In this document: positions 50,769 to 64,000 of the stretch, in pieces | Position numbering within the stretch: position 1 is the stretch's first letter | Layout: each line of letters starts with the position of its first letter | Assembly: GCA_035533075.1 (NCBI GenBank) | Contig: DATLUO010000130.1 | Span: 1-64,000 of the forward strand | Source of the DNA: Pirellulales bacterium | GTDB lineage: Bacteria; Planctomycetota; Planctomycetia; Pirellulales; JAICIG01 | Direction: 5' to 3' | Length of the DNA: 64,000 nt | Program-made: the position numbers and the translations under genes | The notes under the pieces: model-generated | Told to the model about the DNA's origin: nothing | The model's input: the letters and a program-made list of their open reading frames with translations, nothing else | Databases searched by the model: none

Positions 50769-51614
50769 ATGGTCCGCGCAAACAGGCAACTTATCACCGA
50801 ATACCAACGGCTCTTGACGGCGAACGAGTCGCTGGCGAGCGTCAAGCGAGCGATCAAGCTCGTTTGGCACGTTCTCGGGGCACGCGTCCGGCCGACGGCC
50901 AATGGCTTCGTTTGCGAGTTGTTTAACGCCGAATGCGCCGAGGTTGACGAACAGCTTCGGCAGGCCATCGAACGGTTAGGGCCGCTTGGAGTTCCCGCGG
51001 ACCGCAAAGTCGGCGGCCGCGCACATTCGCGAAGTTCTGAACAACAGAAGCTGCGGGCCGTGGTCCGCGAAACGGAAGTTGCCCTTACGCTGGCTCCCAC
51101 GGTCGCCTCAATGCCGGAGAAGGGACTCGGCGAAACAAGTTTATCGCTGCTGATGGATTCGTGCATGTTGTTGGCCCACCACGCTTACTTCGCACTGCTG
51201 CCGAAGCTCGATGAAGTGCTGCTAGCCAGCGAACGTGACGCGTTTCTTTCCGGGTTTCGGCAGTTCGCCGAATCGCAGACGCGTGCCTGCGACCGCTTTG
51301 CCCTGTTAGCGCTCTACTTCGATGCGGTCGATGCGCCACAAGACGCAAGCGACGCCCGCAGGGCCGCGCTGGCCGCCACTCCCGCCGACGCTCACGAATT
51401 CATGACGGAGTTGCAGAGCTCGTGGTCGAGTTTGATCGAGCGAGCAATGCCTGGCGAAGCGCTGGAGCTGCTGCTGGACAATTACCCAAGAGTGCCACGG
51501 CGCGATCTCGACGAGGTGAACGAGTTGATTCGACAGACGTTCCGGCATCAAAAGGCCGCGTCGAACGGCCATTCCGGCCCGCGCGAGAGCCGCGCGAAGC
51601 GACGAAGTCATTGA
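50769..51614 (+). CDS. hypothetical protein, 281 aa
   Basis: ATG 4 nt after the DUF1549/1553 stop, so cotranscribed. Soluble, helix-rich, no signal peptide: RLLTANESLASVKRAIKLVWHVLGA near the start, then TSLSLLMDSCMLLAHHAYFALLPKLDEVL and RACDRFALLALYFDAVDAPQDASDARRAAL. Basic tail. Unknown family. The helical repeats could be TPR-like, but no clear repeat register is visible. Convergent with the FtsX gene 30 nt away. Confidence 0.6.
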   Translation: MVRANRQLITEYQRLLTANESLASVKRAIKLVWHVLGARVRPTANGFVCELFNAECAEVDEQLRQAIERLGPLGVPADRKVGGRAHSRSSEQQKLRAVVRETEVALTLAPTVASMPEKGLGETSLSLLMDSCMLLAHHAYFALLPKLDEVLLASERDAFLSGFRQFAESQTRACDRFALLALYFDAVDAPQDASDARRAALAATPADAHEFMTELQSSWSSLIERAMPGEALELLLDNYPRVPRRDLDEVNELIRQTFRHQKAASNGHSGPRESRAKRRSH

Positions 51615-51643: not shown

Positions 51644-54022
51644 TCATTCTTTGGTCTTCATTGCTTCCAACCAGTCCATACGGAAAATGGCGCGCTGCAC
51701 GACGGCATGCGCCACCAACGCGAAAACGCCGCCGATGACAAACGTCGCCAGGCAACTTTGAGTCGGGTCGACCACCGGTATGCGGAAAAGATCCGTGTCG
51801 TAGGCCACCGTAATGCCCCAATTCAAGAGATAGCCCAGCGGCATGCCGGCCAGCGTGCCCAGCGTGTTTACCAGCAGGCTCTCGCGCAGAAAGAGATTCC
51901 CCACCTGCCATTCGGTGTAGCCCAGCACGCGCAACGTGGCCACCTCGCGGCTGCGCTCGGCCAGCCCGATCAGCGACGAGTTGAGCACGCTGCCGAAAAA
52001 AATCACGCCCGCAAACAGCACCAGCAGGCCGATGAACACCCGCTGGTTCTTGATCAGCGTGTCCATGACGTTGGCCACCGCGTCAGCCCGTGAGCTGACC
52101 GATTGCACGCCGGGCAGCCGCTTCAACTCGCGATAGAGCGATAACACCACGTCGCGGCGGGGGTCGATCGCCAACTGCACGCCCGACACCGCCAGCTCCT
52201 CGTGGACCAGCCGGCTGAGATATTGAATGTCGGCATAGACCGTCAGGCCCATGTAGTTGTCGGCGATGCCCACCACGGGCACGCGGCGCGGCTCGCGCAG
52301 GCCCTTGGTGGGGCGAATCTCGACCAGGTCGCCGCGATCGAGATACAGCAGCTCGGCCAGCTTGCGGCTCATCAGCAGGCCGCTTGCGGGGATGCGCAGC
52401 CGCCGGCCCGCCAGATCGCGCGGCACCGTCAATCGGGCATCGCGGGCCAGGCCCGTGATGCCGCCCTTGTAGGAATGCGGGCCGTTGATGAAGGTGCAGC
52501 CAACGCTCAACATCGGCTCGGCACGGTCGACGCCGGGCAACTGCCGCGCTTCGGTCAGCGCGGCTTCCGACCGCTCGTCTTCGAAGGCCAGGTCGATGTC
52601 GCTCCGCTGCACCTGGAAGAACTGAAAGTCGACCAGGAACCGCGTCGCCTCGACAAGCATCAATGCGTTCACCGACATGCCGGCCCCCATCGCTGCCGCA
52701 AACATGCCGGCCGCCGTGCGGAACCGCTGCCGCACCAGGTTGCGCAGCGTCATCCGCCAGGCGAAGCTCAACGACTTCCAGAAGCGGCCGAAACGCTCCA
52801 GCCAGATCGCGCCACCCTGAGCGGGCGGTTTGGGACGCATGGCCACCGCCGGCTCCAGCCGCAACACGGCCCGCGCTCCGTGAACCGATCCGATCAGGGC
52901 ACAAGCCAGGCTGACCAAGATGCCCTGCACAAAAATGTCGAAGTAGAACTGGTTGTCGAGCGTGGGGAACTCGAAGAACTTGCGGTACAGGCCGGTCATG
53001 CCGAACGAGATCGCATAGCCGAGGCCGCCGCCCAATGCGCCGCCGAGCACGCCGACGGCCAACCCGAACTTGAGAAAGTGGGCGAACACCTGCCGGTCGA
53101 GATAGCCGATGGCCTTGAGTGTGCCCACGATCACCCGCTGCTGCTCGGTCAAACGGGTCATGAGCACATTGAGCACCAGCGCCGCCACCGAGAGGAAGAT
53201 CAGCGGGTCGATCACGCCGAACGCCTTCAGCCCGGAGATCTCGTTGCTCAAAAAACGGTTCGAGGGCTGCTGCGAAAGCGGCACGCTGGTGAACACGCCG
53301 TAGGAATCGAGCAGCAGCTCTGCCCGGCGCATCGTTTCGTCCGGCCGGTCGCGCAACTGCGGCGAGAGCAACCCCAGCACTTGGTTGCACGCGCCGTCGA
53401 AATCGAACACCTCCTCGGCGTAGGAATGTTTGAGATAGAAGACGCCCAGATGTTCCGGGTCGGGCATGATCGAACCCGGCCCGACCAGGTAGGTGAATTC
53501 GCTGCTCATGGCCGTGCCCACGATGAACAGCTCTTGCCGGCGGTTGTTCAAGATCAGGTGAATCCATTGGCCCGGCCCGAGTCCGTGAACGCGGGCGAAC
53601 TTTTCGTTGACGATCACTTCGTTCGACCGCGCGTCGGTGAAGTAGCCGCCCCGCCTGAGCAGCACGTCGTTGATCGTCGGCTCGCGGCGGTCGGGCAGCG
53701 ACAGCACGATGCCGTTGAGCGGCTCGGCGATGCGCTCGATGTCGACCGTGGCGAAAAACTGGATGCGCGGCCGCACTTCGACCACGCCCGGCAGCCTGGC
53801 CACGGCCGCCAGCTCGGAGACGGGCACCTTTTTCACTTCCAGCGAAAAATCGGCCATCCGGCAGTCGGCATAATAGCGGTGCTGGGCCCGCGACAGGTTG
53901 CGGTAAGCGAAGCCGAGCGCCACGTAGCAGGCCACGCCCACGGCCATGATGCTGGTGATGGCCAGCAACAGCCCGCCCGAATGACGCAGGTCGCGCAGCA
54001 GCTTGCGGTCGAGGACGGTCAC
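51644..54022 (-). CDS. ABC permease with two FtsX domains, no adjacent ATPase
   Basis: 792 aa, GTG 54022 with GGAGGATG. Eight or more membrane segments in two FtsX halves: LLLAITSIMAVGVACYVALGFAY, LSVAALVLNVLMTRLTEQQRVIVGTLKAIGYLDRQVF (the first FtsX coupling motif), and the second half MFAAAMGAGMSVNALML ... VLNSSLIGLAERSREVATLRVLGYTEWQVG. Extracytoplasmic MacB_PCD-like domains lie between. Such permeases need a partner ATPase and often an HlyD protein; neither is next to it. A 32-codon ORF sits where they would be expected. Confidence 0.88.
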   Translation of the reverse strand: MTVLDRKLLRDLRHSGGLLLAITSIMAVGVACYVALGFAYRNLSRAQHRYYADCRMADFSLEVKKVPVSELAAVARLPGVVEVRPRIQFFATVDIERIAEPLNGIVLSLPDRREPTINDVLLRRGGYFTDARSNEVIVNEKFARVHGLGPGQWIHLILNNRRQELFIVGTAMSSEFTYLVGPGSIMPDPEHLGVFYLKHSYAEEVFDFDGACNQVLGLLSPQLRDRPDETMRRAELLLDSYGVFTSVPLSQQPSNRFLSNEISGLKAFGVIDPLIFLSVAALVLNVLMTRLTEQQRVIVGTLKAIGYLDRQVFAHFLKFGLAVGVLGGALGGGLGYAISFGMTGLYRKFFEFPTLDNQFYFDIFVQGILVSLACALIGSVHGARAVLRLEPAVAMRPKPPAQGGAIWLERFGRFWKSLSFAWRMTLRNLVRQRFRTAAGMFAAAMGAGMSVNALMLVEATRFLVDFQFFQVQRSDIDLAFEDERSEAALTEARQLPGVDRAEPMLSVGCTFINGPHSYKGGITGLARDARLTVPRDLAGRRLRIPASGLLMSRKLAELLYLDRGDLVEIRPTKGLREPRRVPVVGIADNYMGLTVYADIQYLSRLVHEELAVSGVQLAIDPRRDVVLSLYRELKRLPGVQSVSSRADAVANVMDTLIKNQRVFIGLLVLFAGVIFFGSVLNSSLIGLAERSREVATLRVLGYTEWQVGNLFLRESLLVNTLGTLAGMPLGYLLNWGITVAYDTDLFRIPVVDPTQSCLATFVIGGVFALVAHAVVQRAIFRMDWLEAMKTKE

Positions 54023-54117
54023 GAGACGACATCCTCCGGGGCGACGGGCGGAGCTTCGACCTGGTCCGGCCCTGGAACGGCCGAACTTGCAGAACGCGGC
54101 CCGTTCGAGTTTGCCAT
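54019..54117 (-). CDS. 32-residue leader ORF, possible fused remnant of a lost upstream gene
   Basis: ATG 54117 has GAGGAG 9-10 nt upstream and a promoter behind it. The peptide begins MANSNGPRSASSAVPGPDQV and ends PPVAPEDVVS. Its TGA overlaps the GTG of the permease (GTGA), so translation is coupled. The sequence resembles the polar N- and C-terminal tails of HlyD/ATPase proteins. I infer an internal deletion that joined the start and end of an upstream efflux gene and kept the coupling. A genuine short leader peptide is the alternative. Confidence 0.6.
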   Translation of the reverse strand: MANSNGPRSASSAVPGPDQVEAPPVAPEDVVS

Positions 54118-54140
54118 ATTGTTGCTCCTCGGCTAACGAA

Positions 54141-54169
54141 GTTTGTACTTCCTGCGATGAGACACTGCA
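54141..54169 (-). promoter_or_regulatory. promoter for the leader ORF and FtsX gene
   Basis: On the minus strand, TTGCAG (54164-54169), a 17-nt spacer and TACAAA (54141-54146). The predicted start is ~54134, just upstream of the GAGGAG ribosome site of the 32-codon ORF. Confidence 0.55.
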
Positions 54170-54192
54170 AATCTGCTGGTGGGGCGGTCCGG

Positions 54193-54285
54193 TCAGCGCG
54201 GGCCGCCAGTGATGTAAAAACTTTCGCCGGTGATCCAGGCGTCAGCCTTCTCTTTCAGAAAAAATGGACGGCGCAACGCACCTCG
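54193..54285 (-). pseudogene. 3' remnant of a short-chain dehydrogenase
   Basis: In the minus-strand frame ending at 54193-54195 the sequence reads KEKADAWITGESFYITGGPR, then stop. This is the usual SDR C-terminus and closely parallels the end of the intact SDR at 58200-58952 (SADSAWITGENLYVTGGLR). Upstream of about codon 12 the match is lost. Nothing else of the gene remains between it and the peroxidase-like gene, which ends at 54286. A decayed paralogue. Confidence 0.6.
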
Positions 54286-55845
54286 TCACAACTGCCGCAA
54301 GAAGGCCACAAGCTCGGCCTTCTCGTCCCGCTCAAGCTTGAGTCCTTGCACGAGGTTGAAGAACTCGACGGCGTCTTCCAGCGTCAAACAGCGACCGTCG
54401 TGCAGGTACGGCGGGCTGTCTTTGACGCCCCGCAACGTGAAGGCTTTGATCGGGCCGTCGCCGGCCGCGTCTTTCAAAAAGCGCTCCACGTGCAGGTCGT
54501 GCATGTTGTTGTCGAGATAAAACGGCGCCGGATGGCAGACCGAACACTGCGCCTTGCCGAAGAACAGCTTCTCGCCGCGCAGCTCGCTGGGCGTGGCTTT
54601 GTCCGGATCGAGATGCCCGATGAGCGTCAGCTTGGGGGCGGGCGGAAAGTCGAGCATGTTCTGCAGTTGGGCCATGTGCGTTACCTGGATGCGGTCCAGG
54701 ATGTTCATCCCCTTTTTCATGGCGTGGATCGCATCGCCGTTGAAATACGCCGTCCGCTGCTCGAATTCCGTGAAATCTTCCACGGAGCGGAGACTCCGCT
54801 TCGACCCGTGAATCTGCTGATTGAACAGCCCGCGCAGGCTGACCGTGTCGAGCCGCATGCGGCGCTGTTCCGGCCGCGTGTCGGGGCTGATGTGGAACTG
54901 TCCGGCCGTGTGGCCGTTGGTGTGGCAATCGAAACACGCGACGCCCAGACTGGGCTCGGCCGTCTTGCGATCGCCGGTCGGGTTGAACTCTTCTTGCGGA
55001 AAGGGCGTCACCAACAGCCGCAGGCCATCGAGTTGCACGGCCGTCAGCAGATCGGCAAACAGCCGATAATAGTTGTTGATCGACAGCACCTCGCCGCGCG
55101 AGACGTCGCCCAGCTCCGGGCGGTTCTGCAGATACATGGCCGGCGGAAACTCCGGCAAAAACGCTTCGGGCAAGTCGAACTCCACGTCGTACCGCTCCAG
55201 GCGTGGAAACATCTTGATCTGCATTTGCGGAAACACCTGCCCGCCCAGCCCCCCGCCCTGCGCCGGATGAGGCAGCGCCGGATACGGGAAAATATCCTTT
55301 TGGGCGATCTCATCGGCGCTCATGCCAGCCAGCGCATTCCAATCGACGCCTTTGGGCAGCTTGGCGGTCGGCCCGACCGGAATTGGTTTGCCGCGCGACA
55401 TCTTCGCTTCGCGGTCGAGCTTCGGCTTCAAGTCATAGCGGGCCTCCAGAAGCTTGCGCTGCGTGGCCATGACCTTTGGCTTGGCCTCGACGCCGGCTTG
55501 ATAGATGTCTTCGAAGGTCATGCCCGGCTTCATGGCGCCGAGAGGATCGAGGTAGAAGTCAAAACCGAGCATCTGCCCTTGGTCTTTCTGGTCGGACAGC
55601 GCCTTGGTGGTGGGCAACGCCTTGGCCGGCTTGAAGATATCCGACGTGTCGTGCTTGGTCTTTTTCTGTTCGGGCCGCTCGACGGGCACTTCCTTGGGGG
55701 TCTGGGCCTCGGCCACGGCGTCGCGCGGGGCTTTGCCCTTGGCGGGCTGCCTGGCATTTTTCTCTTGGGCCACGATCTGCAAAGCGGAGGCGTCCGCTAA
55801 CAAGGCCGCGGCAAGAGCCAGAACCAGCCTAATCCGAGTGCTCAT
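54286..55845 (-). CDS. dihaem cytochrome-c peroxidase-like protein (MauG/CcpA superfamily)
   Basis: 519 aa from ATG 55845 after GGGAGG. Signal peptide (LVLALAAALLADASA), then a long Lys/Pro-rich linker. Haem motifs CFDCHTNGHTAGQFHIS and CSVCHPAPFYLDNNMHDLHVERF follow, then the family motif FTLRGVKDSPPYLHDGRCLTLEDAVEFFNL near the end. Located in the periplasmic space. The N-terminal ~200 residues are longer than in typical CcpA, so the substrate may differ. The 87-aa gene upstream overlaps it (ATGA). Confidence 0.85.
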   Translation of the reverse strand: MSTRIRLVLALAAALLADASALQIVAQEKNARQPAKGKAPRDAVAEAQTPKEVPVERPEQKKTKHDTSDIFKPAKALPTTKALSDQKDQGQMLGFDFYLDPLGAMKPGMTFEDIYQAGVEAKPKVMATQRKLLEARYDLKPKLDREAKMSRGKPIPVGPTAKLPKGVDWNALAGMSADEIAQKDIFPYPALPHPAQGGGLGGQVFPQMQIKMFPRLERYDVEFDLPEAFLPEFPPAMYLQNRPELGDVSRGEVLSINNYYRLFADLLTAVQLDGLRLLVTPFPQEEFNPTGDRKTAEPSLGVACFDCHTNGHTAGQFHISPDTRPEQRRMRLDTVSLRGLFNQQIHGSKRSLRSVEDFTEFEQRTAYFNGDAIHAMKKGMNILDRIQVTHMAQLQNMLDFPPAPKLTLIGHLDPDKATPSELRGEKLFFGKAQCSVCHPAPFYLDNNMHDLHVERFLKDAAGDGPIKAFTLRGVKDSPPYLHDGRCLTLEDAVEFFNLVQGLKLERDEKAELVAFLRQL

Positions 55846-58199: not shown

Positions 58200-58952
58200 A
58201 TGTCGAAGAAACTGGAAGGGCAAGTCGCCGTGGTGACGGGCGCGTCCAAAGGAATCGGAGCCGCGATTGCCGAGCATTTGGCAGCGGCGGGCGCGGCGGT
58301 CGTGGTCAATTACGCCAGCAGTGGTGCCGGCGCGGACGCGGTCGTCAACCGCATACGGCAAGCGGACGGGAAAGCCGTGGCCGTGCAGGCCGATGTTTCC
58401 AAGCTCGAGGACATCCGCCGCCTTTTTGGGGAGACAACGAAGGCATTCGGCAAGCTCGACATCCTTGTGAACAATGCGGGCATCTATGAATTTGCCCCGC
58501 TGGAAGCGATCAGCGCCGAGCACTTTCACAAGCATTTTGACCTCAACGTGCTGGGGCTGTTGTTGACGACGCAAGAAGCCGTCAAGCTTTTCGGTCCCTC
58601 CGGCGGCAGCATCATCAATATCAGCTCGTTTGCCGCCACGTCGGCGCCACCGAACGCGTCCGTGTACAGCGGCACCAAGGCGGCCGTGAACGCGATCACG
58701 CGCTCCCTGGCCCAGGAACTGGGGCCGCGCAAAATCCGCGTCAACGCCGTCAGTCCCGGAGTCGTCGAAACCGAGGGGCTGCATACAGCCGGCATCCCTG
58801 GCAGCCACTTCCAAAAGCAGATGGAAGCGCAAACTCCGCTCGGCAGAATCAGCCAGCCGCAGGACGTGGCGCCGGCGGTGGTCTTCCTGGCATCTGCCGA
58901 CTCAGCCTGGATTACGGGTGAAAACCTTTACGTCACTGGGGGGCTGCGTTGA
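58200..58952 (+). CDS. short-chain dehydrogenase/reductase (classical SDR)
   Basis: 250 aa from ATG 58200 with AAAAGGAG, preferred over an in-frame ATG at 58086. Cofactor motif TGASKGIGAAIAEHL, NNAG (ILVNNAGIYEF), catalytic Ser in IINISSFAATSAPP and the YxxxK of VYSGTKAAVNAI are all present. The VVNYASS segment after beta-2 hints at NADP(H). Resembles FabG-like/glucose dehydrogenase-like SDRs; substrate unknown. First gene of a two-reductase operon behind promoter B. Its end closely matches the SDR remnant at 54193-54285. Confidence 0.92.
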   Translation: MSKKLEGQVAVVTGASKGIGAAIAEHLAAAGAAVVVNYASSGAGADAVVNRIRQADGKAVAVQADVSKLEDIRRLFGETTKAFGKLDILVNNAGIYEFAPLEAISAEHFHKHFDLNVLGLLLTTQEAVKLFGPSGGSIINISSFAATSAPPNASVYSGTKAAVNAITRSLAQELGPRKIRVNAVSPGVVETEGLHTAGIPGSHFQKQMEAQTPLGRISQPQDVAPAVVFLASADSAWITGENLYVTGGLR

Positions 58953-58982: not shown

Positions 58983-60047
58983 ATGACATCGCGGGCCCTC
59001 ATCGCCGGAGCCACCGGCTTGATCGGAAGCAACCTGGCCGAGCATCTCGTATCCAAGGGCTGGGAGGTCTACGGCCTCGCGCGCCAGCCACAAAGCGGCG
59101 TCCCCGGCATTCGACCCGTCGCGGCAGATATGCTCGACCCGGCGTCGCTTCGCCCTTCGCTTGCCGGCATTGACCCCACCCATGTCTTTTTCACGACTTG
59201 GGTCCGCCGGGCGACCGAAGAGCAGAATATCACGGCGAACGGCGCCCTGGTGCGCAACCTGCTCGCCGCGCTCGACCAGTCCAAGAGCCTGCAGCACGCC
59301 GCCCTCGTCACCGGCCTGAAGCACTACCTCGGGCCGTTCGAGAACTACGCGAAAGCGAAGCCGGACACGCCGCTGCGCGAGGAGATGCCTCGGCTTGCGT
59401 TTCCGAACTTCTTCTATGCCCAGGAAGACGAGCTTTTCGACGCAGCCCGTCGCATGGGCTTCACCTGGAGCGTGCATCGGTCGCACACGACCATCGGTTA
59501 TTCGTTGGGCACCTCCATGAACATGGGGGTGACGCTTGCCGTCTACGCCACGATTTGCCGCGAGACCGGTCGCCCCTTCGTCTTCCCCGGCTCCGCCCAG
59601 CAGTGGGAGGGGCTGACCGACGTAACCGACGCGCGCGTCCTGGCGAAACAAATGGAATGGGCCGCGACCACGGAAGCGGGCCGAAACCAGGCGTTCAACA
59701 TCGTCAATGGCGACATCTTCCGCTGGCGTTGGCTCTGGCCGAAGCTGGCGGCTGACTTTGGCATCGAGGCGGCGCCATACCCAGGCCGCCCGACGCCGCT
59801 CGAGCCGCAGCTTGCGGACGCGGGGCCGGTTTGGGCCCGAATCGTGGCGAAGCATGGCCTCGCCGAAGCCGATCTGGGCAAAGTGGCGTCGGCCTGGCAT
59901 ACCGACCTGGACCTCGGCCGCGAGATCGAGGTCGTGACCGACATGACCAAGAGCCGCCTGGCCGGCTTCCGCGACTATCAGCCGACCCTCGGCTCGTTCC
60001 TCGACCTGTTCGCCAGATTACGGCAGGAGCGGATCATCCCGGCATGA
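58983..60047 (+). CDS. PRISE-type (progesterone 5-beta-reductase-like) NAD-dependent reductase
   Basis: 354 aa from ATG 58983 with AAGGAG. Extended-SDR start ALIAGATGLIGSNLAEHLV. The family-typical VTGLKHYLGPFENYAKAKPDTPLREE and FYAQEDELFDAAR follow, with the catalytic-type Lys/Tyr region of PRISE enzymes, then WSVHRSHTTIGYSLGTSMN and NIVNGDIFRWRWLWPKLA. PRISE enzymes reduce activated enones such as reactive aldehydes or ketones, which fits a detoxification setting. Cotranscribed with the SDR (30-nt gap). Confidence 0.85.
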   Translation: MTSRALIAGATGLIGSNLAEHLVSKGWEVYGLARQPQSGVPGIRPVAADMLDPASLRPSLAGIDPTHVFFTTWVRRATEEQNITANGALVRNLLAALDQSKSLQHAALVTGLKHYLGPFENYAKAKPDTPLREEMPRLAFPNFFYAQEDELFDAARRMGFTWSVHRSHTTIGYSLGTSMNMGVTLAVYATICRETGRPFVFPGSAQQWEGLTDVTDARVLAKQMEWAATTEAGRNQAFNIVNGDIFRWRWLWPKLAADFGIEAAPYPGRPTPLEPQLADAGPVWARIVAKHGLAEADLGKVASAWHTDLDLGREIEVVTDMTKSRLAGFRDYQPTLGSFLDLFARLRQERIIPA

Positions 60048-60049
60048 TG

Positions 60050-60084
60050 GATCGGCGCTCGCAAGCTCGCTTGTCCTACCCTAC
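60050..60084. repeat. 3'-end palindromic repeat, family 1 (single arm)
   Basis: ATCGGCGCTCGCAAGCTCGC then TTGTCCTACCCTAC is one arm of the family. It begins 3 nt after the stop of the PRISE gene (+). It also runs into the stop of the 16-codon minus-strand ORF (60081-60083), which uses its terminal TAG. Confidence 0.8.
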
Positions 60085-60131
60085 GGCTTAAGGAGATTGC
60101 CCGTCGAATAGGTTTGCATTGCCTTCGTCAT
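60081..60131 (-). CDS. 16-residue ORF with strong ribosome site, possibly truncated gene
   Basis: ATG 60131 follows TGGAGGAACGACC, one of the best ribosome sites in the window. The peptide is MTKAMQTYSTGNLLKP, then TAG supplied by the repeat end. Either a real micropeptide or the 5' end of a gene cut by the repeat. No protein family recognised at this length. Confidence 0.4.
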   Translation of the reverse strand: MTKAMQTYSTGNLLKP

Positions 60132-60283
60132 GGTCGTTCCTCCATTTACGCCCGCTTTACCACCAGGCGGTCGGCATTCGGGCAATAAACGTGCCAGACG
60201 GCCATGGGCCGGCCCGGAGGCGATCGTTCCTGGATGGCGACATGACGCAAGTGTAGACTTGCCTTGACTCTGATCGCCGTCCA

Positions 60284-60310
60284 TGAAAGGATTTTGCTCG
60301 TCAGCGGTAT
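60284..60310 (+). promoter_or_regulatory. ECF-like promoter motif, copy E (efflux unit)
   Basis: TGAAAG (60284-60289), 17 nt, GTAT (60307-60310), 37 nt before the ATG of the HlyD-type gene. Flanking match to the other copies is weaker than for A-D. A CAAGT/ACTTG inverted repeat (60249-60262) lies just upstream. Nothing else is seen in the 60132-60346 stretch. Confidence 0.45.
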
Positions 60311-60346
60311 CACATTGGCGGGCACGACGGTCGGAGACCCCAAAAA

Positions 60347-61915
60347 ATGGCCAACACGAACGAGCCACACCCCAACCTTTCCAGCAACGGCGCTCGAAGC
60401 GAGCTCCTGCCGGAAAAAAGCCACGAATCACACGACGGTTCGGTCGCTCTGGCCGAACCGTCGGCACAGCCGGGCCAAGAGGCAGCCGCCGCTACAACCT
60501 CGGCGGCACGAACCGCGCCGACGCCCCAATCGCGCAAATGGCTGCTGCGCGGCGCGGCGGTCATCGCCGTTCTTGTGGTGGCCTATTGGTTTATCCCGTG
60601 GCTGATACTGGCGCTCAACACCGTTTCGACCGACGACGCTTATGTCAACAGTCACGTCACCTTCGTCGCCCCGCGCGTGGCGGGCCAGGTGATGGAGGTG
60701 CTGGTCGACGACAACCTGCGGGTCAAAAAAGGAAGCGTGCTCGTGCGGCTCGATAAGGAGCCGTATCAGGTTCAGCTGGACATCAAAAAAGCAGCCGTCG
60801 AGACGGCCCTGGCCGACTGGGTCGCCGCGCAGGCACAAGTGCGCAGCATGGTGGGCCAGGCGCGGGCCAATCGCTTCAAGCTCAATCACGCCATCGAAGA
60901 TGTCAAAAACCAGGTCGCGAATTTGAAGGCCAATGTGGCCACACTCAGAAGCCGCGAGGCCCAATGGACGCTGGCCAAGGCAAACCTCAAACGGCGCGAG
61001 GGATTGATCGTGACCCGCACCATTACGCAGGAAGAGCTTGACGACTCGCGTCAGCAGGCTCAGGTCGCCGAGGCGCTGGTCGAAGAGGCGCGGGAGAAGG
61101 TATATGCCACGCGCGTGAACCTCGGTCTGCTGCCGAAGCCGGAAGGCGGCGATCTAACCGAAGTGCCCGACGACATCTATGAAAACTTTTCCACGATTCG
61201 TCAGGCGTTGGGCGACCTGTTGCAAAGCGCGGCCCAATTCGGGTTTGCTCCGGCGAAATGGGACGCCACGCCGAAGGAGGCCATCGAGGGTTTCTACAAG
61301 CAAGACCCCGAGGGAAACCTGGAACGCATTTACGCCAAAATCGTGAAAGACGCGCCGGCCATTCAGCAGGCCGAAGCCAAGCTCGAACAGGCGCGACGCG
61401 ACCTCGATCAGGCGGAGTTGAATCTTCGGTATTGCGACGTCGTCAGCGAGATCGACGGCGTCGTCACCCGGCGCAACGTCAACCCCGGCAACAACGCGCA
61501 AGTCGGGCAAAAGCTGATGGCCGTCCGCTCGCTCACGGAAATTTGGATCGATGCCAACTTCAAAGAGACGCAGCTCCGCGACCTGCGCATCGGCCATCGC
61601 GCGGTCTGCGAAGTCGATATGTACGGCCGCCACCGCGCATTCGAGGGACGCATCACAGGATTTACGATGGGCACGGGCCAAACCCTCGCGCTGCTTCCAC
61701 CGCAGAACGCCACGGGCAACTTCGTCAAAATCGTGCAACGGTTGCCCGTCCGCATTGAATTGACCGATTACGACCCCGACAAAGAGCCGCTGTTCGTGGG
61801 GCTCTCGGTCGTGCCGTACGTCTATTTCCAAGAGAAACCCGAAGGGCCACACGCGGGCGCGAGGCTGCAACCGCTGAAGCCGCTTTCGCAGCTTGATACC
61901 GGCCCGAAACCATAG
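60347..61915 (+). CDS. HlyD/EmrA-family membrane fusion protein
   Basis: 522 aa. A polar N-terminus of ~60 residues precedes one membrane anchor (LRGAAVIAVLVVAYWFIPWLILAL). The lipoyl half-motif (TDDAYVNSHVTFVAPRVAGQVMEVLVDDNLRVKKGSVLVRLD) leads into a long coiled coil, rich in Ala/Gln/Arg, residues ~140-380. The second lipoyl half (CDVVSEIDGVVTRRNVNPGNNAQVG) and a beta-barrel (IDANFKETQLRDLRIGHRA) follow. With the MFS gene it makes an EmrAB-like pump; an outer-membrane channel is not encoded here. The insert around DPEGNLERIYAKI lengthens the coiled coil. Confidence 0.9.
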   Translation: MANTNEPHPNLSSNGARSELLPEKSHESHDGSVALAEPSAQPGQEAAAATTSAARTAPTPQSRKWLLRGAAVIAVLVVAYWFIPWLILALNTVSTDDAYVNSHVTFVAPRVAGQVMEVLVDDNLRVKKGSVLVRLDKEPYQVQLDIKKAAVETALADWVAAQAQVRSMVGQARANRFKLNHAIEDVKNQVANLKANVATLRSREAQWTLAKANLKRREGLIVTRTITQEELDDSRQQAQVAEALVEEAREKVYATRVNLGLLPKPEGGDLTEVPDDIYENFSTIRQALGDLLQSAAQFGFAPAKWDATPKEAIEGFYKQDPEGNLERIYAKIVKDAPAIQQAEAKLEQARRDLDQAELNLRYCDVVSEIDGVVTRRNVNPGNNAQVGQKLMAVRSLTEIWIDANFKETQLRDLRIGHRAVCEVDMYGRHRAFEGRITGFTMGTGQTLALLPPQNATGNFVKIVQRLPVRIELTDYDPDKEPLFVGLSVVPYVYFQEKPEGPHAGARLQPLKPLSQLDTGPKP

Positions 61916-61916
61916 G

Positions 61917-61984
61917 ATTTTGGATTTTAGATTTTGGATTGGGGCGGAGCAATCCAAAATGCAAAATCGAAAATCCAAAATCAC
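61917..61984. repeat. A/T-rich inverted microrepeat between efflux genes
   Basis: GATTTTGGATTTTAGATTTT followed by a short GC loop and its near-inverse (AATCCAAAAT and variants) spans nearly the whole gap. The unit GATTTTGG also appears, inverted, at the rph start (~30067-30086). It may form a hairpin that tunes the EmrA/EmrB ratio. Confidence 0.65.
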
Positions 61985-61988
61985 AGTC

Positions 61989-63596
61989 ATGGCCACCGCG
62001 CCACCCACCGCAGCCGCTTCACGTCGCACGATCAGCCCCTGGCTGGTCGCCATGGCGGTGGTGATTCCCACATTCATGGAGGTGCTCGATACGACCATCG
62101 CCAACGTCGCGCTGCGATACATTGCGGGCGGACTTTCGGCGGCCGTGGTCGATAGCGAGTGGGTGCTCACCAGCTACCTGGCCGCGAACGCCGTGATCCT
62201 GCCGATTTCCGGCTGGATTTCGGCCCGTCTCGGCCGCAAGAATTATTTCATGCTGTCAATCGCGGTCTTCACGATCGCGTCGGTCGCGTGCGGCATGGCA
62301 ACGAGCCTGGGGCAATTAATTCTCTTTCGCGTGGTTCAGGGTCTAGCGGGCGGCGGCTTGCAGCCGTCAAGCCAGGGCGTGTTGCTCGATACGTTCCCGC
62401 CCGAAAAGCAAGGCGCGGCCATGACGACGTTCGGCGTAGCAGCGCTGCTCGCGCCGGTCGTCGGCCCGACGTTGGGCGGTTACCTGACGGTGAACTACGA
62501 GTGGCGCTGGATCTTTTACATCAACTTGCCCGTGGGAGCGATTAGTTGTTTGGCCGCGTATTTCTTGGTCGAGGACCCCGATTACCTCAAACAAGAGCGG
62601 GCCGAGCTACTGCGTCATCCGCTCAACTTCGACGCCATCGGTTTGGGACTGCTGGCCCTCATCATGTCGTGCTGGGAAATTGTGCTCAGCAAGGGCGAGC
62701 AATGGAATTGGTATGGCGATCCCTTTTGGAGAGTGCAGACTCTCACGATTCTGTTCGTGGCGGGCCTGGCTTGGCTGCTCTTCCGGGAACTTGCGATTTC
62801 CAACCCCGTAGTCAATTTCCGAGCGCTTGCCGAGCGAAACTTGGCGGCGTCGTGCATCATCATTTTTTGTGCCTACGGGGTGTTGTACGGGGCGAGCACC
62901 TCGCTGCCCGGGCTGCTGCAATCGCAGTTTGGCTACGATGCCTACGTTTCCGGACTGGTGATGTCGCCCTCCGGCGTGTTCTCGGTCATGATGATGCTCG
63001 TCGTAGGAGCCCTCCTTGGCCGCGGAACGGATGCGCGTTGGCTGATTGTCGCGGGGCTGCTGGTCATGGCCGCAGCCGACTATTGGATGGCCTTGATGAA
63101 CCTTTACATCAGCCCATCACAAGTCGTTTGGCCGCGGGTGCTGATGATTGTCGGCCTGTCGATGATCTTTGCGCCCCTCAACGTGGCCGCCTATCTCTAT
63201 ACGCCCCGGCATCTGCGCGGCGCGGCGGTCGGTCTGGCCGCGCTCTTGCGCAACGAGGGCGGCAGCGTGGGCACCTCGGTCGCCCAGACGATGCAAGAAC
63301 GCCGCGATCAGTTTCATACCTGGCGCGTGGGCGAGTTTCTCGATCCCTTCAATCCCGCCGTCAATTCCTTCTTGGAACAGGCCCGCGGAGTGTTCCATCA
63401 ACAGACCGGCGATCCGGCTTCGTCGCAGGAAATGGCGCTGGAATCGCTCGAGAATCTTCGCCGACAGCAGGCGGTTTCGCTGGCCTATTTTGACGACTTC
63501 TGGCTGTTCGCCGTCTTGGCCCTGCTGCTCGTGCCGCTGGTTTTGCTCATGAAGCGTTCGGTGGCCGAAAAAGGCGCTCACATCGGCGCGGAGTAA
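61989..63596 (+). CDS. DHA2-family MFS drug exporter (EmrB-like)
   Basis: 535 aa from ATG 61989. Fourteen predicted membrane helices. Family motifs include LDTTIANVALRYIAGGL (motif D1-like), WVLTSYLAANAVILPISGWISARLGRKNYFMLS (motif A) and LILFRVVQGLAGGGLQPSSQGVLLDTFP (motif B), then GPTLGGYLT (motif C). Expels hydrophobic toxic compounds by proton antiport, together with the HlyD protein. Upstream frame extension is made of microrepeat and is not likely translated. Confidence 0.92.
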   Translation: MATAPPTAAASRRTISPWLVAMAVVIPTFMEVLDTTIANVALRYIAGGLSAAVVDSEWVLTSYLAANAVILPISGWISARLGRKNYFMLSIAVFTIASVACGMATSLGQLILFRVVQGLAGGGLQPSSQGVLLDTFPPEKQGAAMTTFGVAALLAPVVGPTLGGYLTVNYEWRWIFYINLPVGAISCLAAYFLVEDPDYLKQERAELLRHPLNFDAIGLGLLALIMSCWEIVLSKGEQWNWYGDPFWRVQTLTILFVAGLAWLLFRELAISNPVVNFRALAERNLAASCIIIFCAYGVLYGASTSLPGLLQSQFGYDAYVSGLVMSPSGVFSVMMMLVVGALLGRGTDARWLIVAGLLVMAAADYWMALMNLYISPSQVVWPRVLMIVGLSMIFAPLNVAAYLYTPRHLRGAAVGLAALLRNEGGSVGTSVAQTMQERRDQFHTWRVGEFLDPFNPAVNSFLEQARGVFHQQTGDPASSQEMALESLENLRRQQAVSLAYFDDFWLFAVLALLLVPLVLLMKRSVAEKGAHIGAE

Positions 63597-63612
63597 CATC
63601 GGCAACGTTTTC

Positions 63613-63639
63613 TGCAAGACTTCGATCTCTCGGCTGTAT
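63613..63639 (+). promoter_or_regulatory. ECF-like promoter motif, copy D (GH15-like unit)
   Basis: TGCAAG (63613-63618), 17 nt, GTAT (63636-63639), preceded by TTTTC as in copies A and C. It is 144 nt upstream of the GTG of the next gene. The 63597-63782 gap holds no other gene. Confidence 0.5.
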
Positions 63640-63782
63640 CTCGCCGCCCGATCGCGACGCCTACGGCACGCCATTCGCTTCCAAGCTTCGACGCCAGTGG
63701 AACGGAACGCGACGGGCTCCTGACGTCTGCTGAATCGCTCCGTTTTCCCTCAGAGGCGACCTCACCACAGGAGGAGCGGACC

Positions 63783-64000
63783 GTGGAATCTCGCTACCAG
63801 GCTATCGAGAATTACGGCCTGATCGGCAACATGCGCACGGCGGCGCTGGTCGGCATGGACGGCTCCATCGACTGGCTCTGCCTGCCGCACTTCGATTCGC
63901 CCAGCGTCTTCGCCGCCATCCTGGACGATCAGAAGGGCGGGCGGTTCCGCATCGCACCCGTCTGTCATCCGCTCCGGCACAAGCAATTCTACTGGCCCGA
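63783..64000 (+). CDS. glycoside hydrolase family 15-like protein, N-terminal part (cut by window end)
   Basis: GTG 63783 follows CAGGAGGAG. 72 codons visible: [49 protein letters not shown]. That is the standard N-terminal (trehalase-like) domain of GH15 glucoamylase/trehalase-type enzymes of ~600 aa. It may degrade trehalose or a glucan. Setting behind promoter D suggests stress-linked trehalose turnover. The 3' end lies outside the window. Confidence 0.85.

Follow-up and report, generated by a model that had tools for sequence, protein, structure and literature searches.

What is the open reading frame (ORF) of 32 codons that overlaps the start of a double-FtsX ABC permease gene in a planctomycete genome, from which genes did its two ends come, and where are the ATPase and the adaptor of the same exporter? 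The window analysed here, that is, the whole stretch of 64,000 nucleotides, belongs to contig C130 of this genome (G000; 8.54 Mb, 296 contigs, 99% complete, 2.69% estimated contamination). Below, the ORF is followed from its signals to its relatives, its two ends and the remaining exporter genes.

Layout of the permease gene and the 32-codon ORF

The permease gene (54022-51644, minus strand) is intact with its double FtsX, as a first-pass annotation of the window had read it. It encodes 792 aa and matches PF02687 in two stretches with 94 bits (cut-off 25.5). Its end branch in the ortholog tree is 0.33, equal to the tree median, so the permease is not decaying. No NCBIfam cut-off was reached by the protein; on TIGR02212, the model of the LolCE lipoprotein-releasing permease, it scored 42.8 bits vs a cut-off of 362.45. 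No ATPase gene was found upstream of ftsX in the window and no adaptor gene downstream. The next likely gene downstream is a convergent ORF of 281 aa (50769-51614, plus strand) with no Pfam match.

The 32-codon ORF (54117-54019, minus strand) starts with ATG at 54117 and reads MANSNGPRSASSAVPGPDQVEAPPVAPEDVVS up to its stop. Its Shine-Dalgarno sequence (SD), GAGGAG at 54125-54130 (minus strand), was read directly 7 nt 5' of the ATG. At the other end, the TGA stop of the ORF and the GTG start of ftsX share the four letters GTGA (54019-54022, minus strand; read directly), and GGAGG at 54033-54037 (minus strand), 10 nt from the GTG, is the SD of ftsX. The two genes thus have the marks of a coupled pair, i.e. 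a 4-nt stop/start overlap in the same direction and an upstream ORF that contains the SD for the gene after it. An intact ORF, a strong ribosome site and the GTGA overlap had all been described in the first-pass annotation and were found again, whereas the intact promoter that it also described was not: a sigma-70 consensus scan of 53900-54500 gave none.

The ftsX SD is predicted to be about 80% paired in the mRNA, and its unpaired fraction of 0.20 compares with a median of 0.35 in 36 orthologs, the ranges overlapping; in folding energy the region is not exceptional (z = -0.23). ORFs as short as 32 codons are many in the ORF list, so that the length alone is within chance, unlike the C-terminal tail, which is beyond chance on the profile of ATPase tails described below.

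The operon in related genomes

The permease was matched at E ≤ 1e-40 in 25 of 39 genomes (38 relatives plus the genome of the window), and at E ≤ 1e-150 in 81 of 396 genomes of the order, the own genome included. Upstream DNA was examined for at most the 30 best of the 81 matching genomes, plus loci from other searches; the related loci named here are from MAGs of Planctomycetota, Pirellulales, Planctomycetales, Planctomycetaceae or Phycisphaerae. From 92 loci with FtsX, 53 distinct ones were retained after removal of duplicates, each with the ftsX start present and at least 400 nt upstream. L111, L016/L051, L039, L021/L060 and L024/L059 were excluded, with the start missing or the upstream DNA too short.

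A gene for a LolD-type ATPase stands directly upstream of ftsX in 50 of the 53 distinct loci, its stop at most 94 nt away; in L110, counted among the 50, the end of the ATPase gene is frameshifted. In 37 loci the ATPase stop falls at the same place as the stop of the 32-codon ORF, 30 times as GTGA and 7 times as GTAA/GTAG, in which case the ftsX start presumably lies one codon further upstream. In L043 and L044 the gene for the HlyD adaptor lies directly downstream of ftsX rather than upstream, with an SDR (short-chain dehydrogenase) gene behind it; in G041 and G076 the adaptor gene likewise stands beside ftsX, and in all four of these cases it comes after ftsX. Both an ATPase and a fusion protein had been expected upstream of the permease gene, which suits the ATPase and not the adaptor. 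A rough sequence pattern gave further loci with a linked adaptor, and as it misses true ones (e.g. L043), its blanks are uninformative.

The adaptor was absent from all seven permease-less genomes tested (of 14 among the 39 genomes), in keeping with one system. In G060, whose ATPase and ftsX genes are adjacent, the adaptor search at E 1e-30 gave no match; thus, not every genome yields all three components. In G001, the one other member of the family covered, no match was obtained to FtsX (E 1e-40), the ATPase (E 1e-60) or HlyD (E 1e-20).

Relatives sharing a conserved version of the short ORF would have indicated a real peptide, according to the same annotation. No such case was found among the 53 loci, and in the three loci that lack an upstream ATPase gene no ORF of this type was seen by eye.

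A more distant FtsX group, 32-33% identical, occurs in the single-contig genomes G006 and G023 (G006:C1, G023:C1; L160-L163). No ATPase gene lies directly upstream of ftsX in either; a related ATPase, 52-53% identical to the one on C149 described below, is encoded far away in G006 and about 14 kb off in G023.

The ATPase tail inside the ORF

The ortholog ATPases end in ..P.P.PPEE(V/I)xW, and their CCG-GAG-GAG codons are the SD of ftsX. The 32-codon ORF ends in ..PPVAPEDVVS and carries CCGGAGGAT at the same spacing of 10 nt. Its last part, PVAPEDVVS with the stop (54019-54049, minus strand), was identified by blastn and by profile score as the remnant of an ATPase gene 3' end, and it is within these codons that the GGAGG of ftsX lies.

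On a profile of 42 ortholog ATPase tails, the last nine codons scored 13.0 bits, just below the lowest of the leave-one-out scores of the 42 tails themselves (13.4-36.2). This is rank 2 among 2,669 ORF ends of the own genome (mean -26.4, s.d. 6.3), taken from the window and six other stretches, one of which repeats window positions 60000-64000; the only higher end is that of the genome's own ATPase, with 31.9 bits. The last residue is S in the ORF vs W in the profile, whose tails were retained only if ending in W, with six distant loci left out by name. Compared by blastn, the final 31 nt share 84% identity with the 3' end of the complete ATPase gene on C149; taken as DNA alone, this match is not significant in a genome-wide blastn (24 nt, E 1.07). 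Since profile score and position agree, we treat the homology of the tail as established.

The same arrangement of the ribosome site is common among the relatives. Of the 43 loci whose ftsX start is of the overlap type, 36 have GAGG within 20 nt 5' of ftsX; 5 of the 43 are ATGA and may represent simple ATG starts that follow a gap. The spacing from SD to ftsX is 10 nt, the commonest value, in 31 of the 38 orthologs that yielded a spacing.

One could take the ORF for a conserved functional small protein, a subunit or regulator of the FtsX exporter, given that it is intact and has a good ribosome site and the overlap with ftsX. But the relatives have an ATPase in its place, as counted above, and its last nine codons are accounted for by the ATPase tail, which leaves a small protein of this kind extremely improbable.

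The first codons of the ORF and the DNA upstream

The other end of the ORF gave no such clear result. Its N-terminus was compared by local protein alignments with up to 50 ortholog ATPase N-termini, the C149 ATPase, the HlyD adaptor on C123 and an EmrA-like HlyD protein encoded from 60347. Codons 1-22 had no notable match to the N-terminus of the C149 ATPase, and the eight best matches by p included neither this ATPase nor the protein encoded from 60347. The ATPase N-termini among the relatives are too variable for a proper comparison with these codons. The first-pass annotation had suggested that the ORF is the fused ends of a lost gene; this holds for the last codons, and for one end only, because the first approximately 22 codons lack a notable ATPase match. 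The fusion is accordingly half proven.

An EmrA-like adaptor gene followed by an MFS transporter gene occupies 60347-63596 (plus strand) of the window. In an ungapped, start-anchored DNA comparison with 989 ATG starts, the start at 60347 came first with 27 of 45 letters identical, the next distinct start having 23, and its gene begins with MANTNEP where the 32-codon ORF begins with MANSNGP. This start may be considered a lead for the source of the 5' part, too weak to claim, because its protein was not among the eight best matches. A gapped blastn match on C202 (88% over 33 nt, E 0.044) was judged to be chance.

Directly upstream of the ORF lies the remnant of an SDR gene 3' end, ending in AWITGESFYITGGPR and a stop (54193-54240, minus strand). 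It was recognised by blastn, with 88% identity over 52 nt (54237-54186) to the SDR gene on C194 of the same genome, and suggests a rearrangement of the DNA before the ORF. The remnant comprises the tail only and sits between the 32-codon ORF and the next gene upstream, which has two CxxCH motifs and no Pfam match. Full SDR paralogs are found on C194 and in the window at about 58200-58952 (plus strand). A collapsed SDR gene, with leader and tail, was considered and rejected: the leader match is weak (27-30 nt, 83%, E 1.07 genome-wide), and only the tail is claimed.

If the ATPase gene had been deleted internally, in frame and in place, the ORF would consist of its own N-terminal extension and its last codons, and the gene on C149 would be a separate copy. 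Several ortholog ATPases seem by eye to have low-complexity N-terminal extensions rich in S, A and P, like MANSNGPRSASSAVPGPDQ, and the best alignment of the ORF's N-terminus to an ortholog ATPase had p of about 0.02, uncorrected for the up to 50 comparisons made. Against this stand the place of the C149 ATPase outside the eight best matches, the rearranged DNA just upstream to which the SDR remnant points, and the adaptor gene, which is also not behind ftsX and sits on C123. With the adaptor displaced too, relocation fits better, and we consider deletion in place unlikely.

The ATPase and adaptor genes elsewhere in the genome

The whole cognate ATPase gene was found on C149. Its product has 68% identity to the ortholog of G010 (next own-genome match 48%), matches PF00005 and contains the Walker A motif GPSGSGKST; on the NCBIfam LolD equivalog it scored 206.3 bits, below the cut-off of 307.75. 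In the ATPase tree the gene falls outside any starred set, and only the nearest rows broadly agree with the FtsX tree. Judged from their sequences, its flanking genes are presumably csrA-like and sulfatase-like. The whole HlyD adaptor gene is on C123 (58% identity; TIGR01730 112.7 bits vs a cut-off of 94.9), with no ftsX gene before it. All parts of an ATPase-FtsX-HlyD exporter are therefore in the genome, i.e. an FtsX permease, a LolD/MacB-type ATPase and a periplasmic adaptor, on three contigs (C130, C149, C123) and not in one operon. The operon genes had been described as missing, which is right for the DNA upstream of ftsX, where no ATPase gene stands, and wrong for the genome: the ATPase gene is relocated rather than lost.

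By eye, an extended -10-like TGATAGAAT on C123 (L094, 2202-2240, minus strand) ends approximately 7 nt 5' of the adaptor ATG, a hint that this isolated gene may be transcribed without a leader.

Behind the ATPase gene on C149, and overlapping its stop, lies GTG AAA CTT GTT GAC CGC TGA (L091, 7222-7243), six codons that read VKLVDR and a stop and resemble the start of ftsX (VKVLDR/VSVLDR in relatives). This is likely, though not certainly, a six-codon remnant of the ftsX start: of 3,321 GTGs, 8 reach at least its score, a number that includes this GTG and the true start of ftsX. An ATPase tail with a probable ftsX head, in different letters, at both C130 and C149 suggests duplication. Such a pattern at two loci is not expected of a simple cut, and would be best explained by a duplicated segment with subsequent complementary loss.

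A chimeric contig that joins ftsX to foreign DNA would also separate the genes, and the 296 contigs and the estimated contamination of 2.69% call for its consideration. The composition of C130, C149 and C123 agrees in G+C and tetranucleotides: C149 and C123 correlate with C130 at 0.68-0.79, as well as parts of C130 do among themselves (0.69-0.78). This agreement is not exclusive, as a stretch of the relative G013 reaches 0.77 with the last quarter of the window. Against an artefact, ftsX and the ATPase gene lie well inside their contigs, the contig of the HlyD gene extends for about 22 kb upstream of it, and all three have the flanks that matter. In addition, the ATPase tail on C130 and that on C149 are not identical in sequence, so neither is simply the other in the wrong place, and the fusion is in frame with SD and overlap preserved. 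The same three genes are on three contigs in a second genome as well (G043: ATPase C33, L158; permease C18, L143; adaptor C259, L159). We regard an assembly artefact as very improbable.

G043 belongs to another part of the tree than the window's genome, beside the operon-bearing G034. Its permease gene has no leader ORF like that of the window; the divergent gene upstream seems to encode a methionyl-tRNA synthetase. The separation of the ATPase-ftsX-HlyD operon thus recurs, and the leader ORF is seen in the window alone.

Discussion

The 32-codon ORF is probably a chimeric leader that arose when an ATPase-ftsX-HlyD exporter operon was broken up, and that delivers ribosomes to ftsX in an exporter assembled in trans. 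By this explanation, a segment of the operon would have been duplicated, with complementary loss thereafter. The copy of ftsX on C130 would have carried along the last 9-10 codons of the ATPase gene and been placed with them in frame behind a new start, so that a new 5' part (SD, ATG and codons 1-22/23) is joined to the ATPase 3' end. The tail would have been kept because its Pro-Glu-Asp/Glu codons are the SD of ftsX and its stop overlaps the ftsX start. A ribosome would load at the 32-codon ORF, end at the TGA and restart at the overlapping GTG; delivery of ribosomes to ftsX would be the job of the ORF, and its peptide is probably unused. The ATPase and the HlyD adaptor would be expressed from C149 and C123, respectively, and assemble with FtsX in trans. 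That the ORF acts as a translational coupler is plausible, given that the ATPase-derived last codons carry both the ftsX SD and the GTGA overlap. Counting against the explanation, one study places Planctomycetes among the groups with few strong SD motifs (PMC6728339), and the separated ftsX of G043 manages without such an ORF, which was found in no second genome.

In overlapping gene pairs, according to the same study, translation can proceed by termination-reinitiation, and an SD inside the 3' end of the upstream ORF constrains the C-terminus of the upstream protein (PMC6728339). The locus resembles these pairs in its 4-nt stop/start overlap and in the downstream SD within the 3' end of the upstream ORF; it is unlike them in that nothing of the upstream protein is left but its SD-bearing tail, now part of a short ORF. 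Termination-reinitiation fits the overlap, the position of the SD within the ORF and, as a suggestive point only, the predicted pairing of this SD. That a short upstream ORF may have no other role than to bring ribosomes to a coupled gene is discussed in a review (PMC12548453). The proposed job here is likewise only to drive translation of the next gene, whereas the origin of the present ORF is partly traceable, its end being the tail of the gene that once preceded ftsX in the operon. The exporters of the MacB/LolCDE/DevBCA kind, made up of ATPase, FtsX and HlyD, are grouped as type VII ABC systems (PMC12646458). The genome has the LolD-like ATPase, the FtsX permease and the HlyD adaptor in common with them and differs in its double-FtsX permease, below every NCBIfam cut-off, and in its three unlinked genes. 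Among the titles and opening lines of abstracts covered, no description of such a remnant ORF was found.

An overlapping gene pair should be hard to separate, because the ribosome site of the second gene often lies in the first. The present locus looks like a worked example of such a separation, in which the downstream gene takes the end of its neighbour along and acquires a short ORF. As a general process, one we advance tentatively and think possible rather than probable, a gene with its SD in the last codons of a neighbour might capture a leader by taking this tail along and fusing it in frame to a new short ORF. If this were true, split overlapping operons would leave a recognisable class of chimeric leader ORFs that resemble orphan small genes. 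The prediction can be tested in other operons that have been split, and remnants of this kind may stand among annotated orphan small ORFs.
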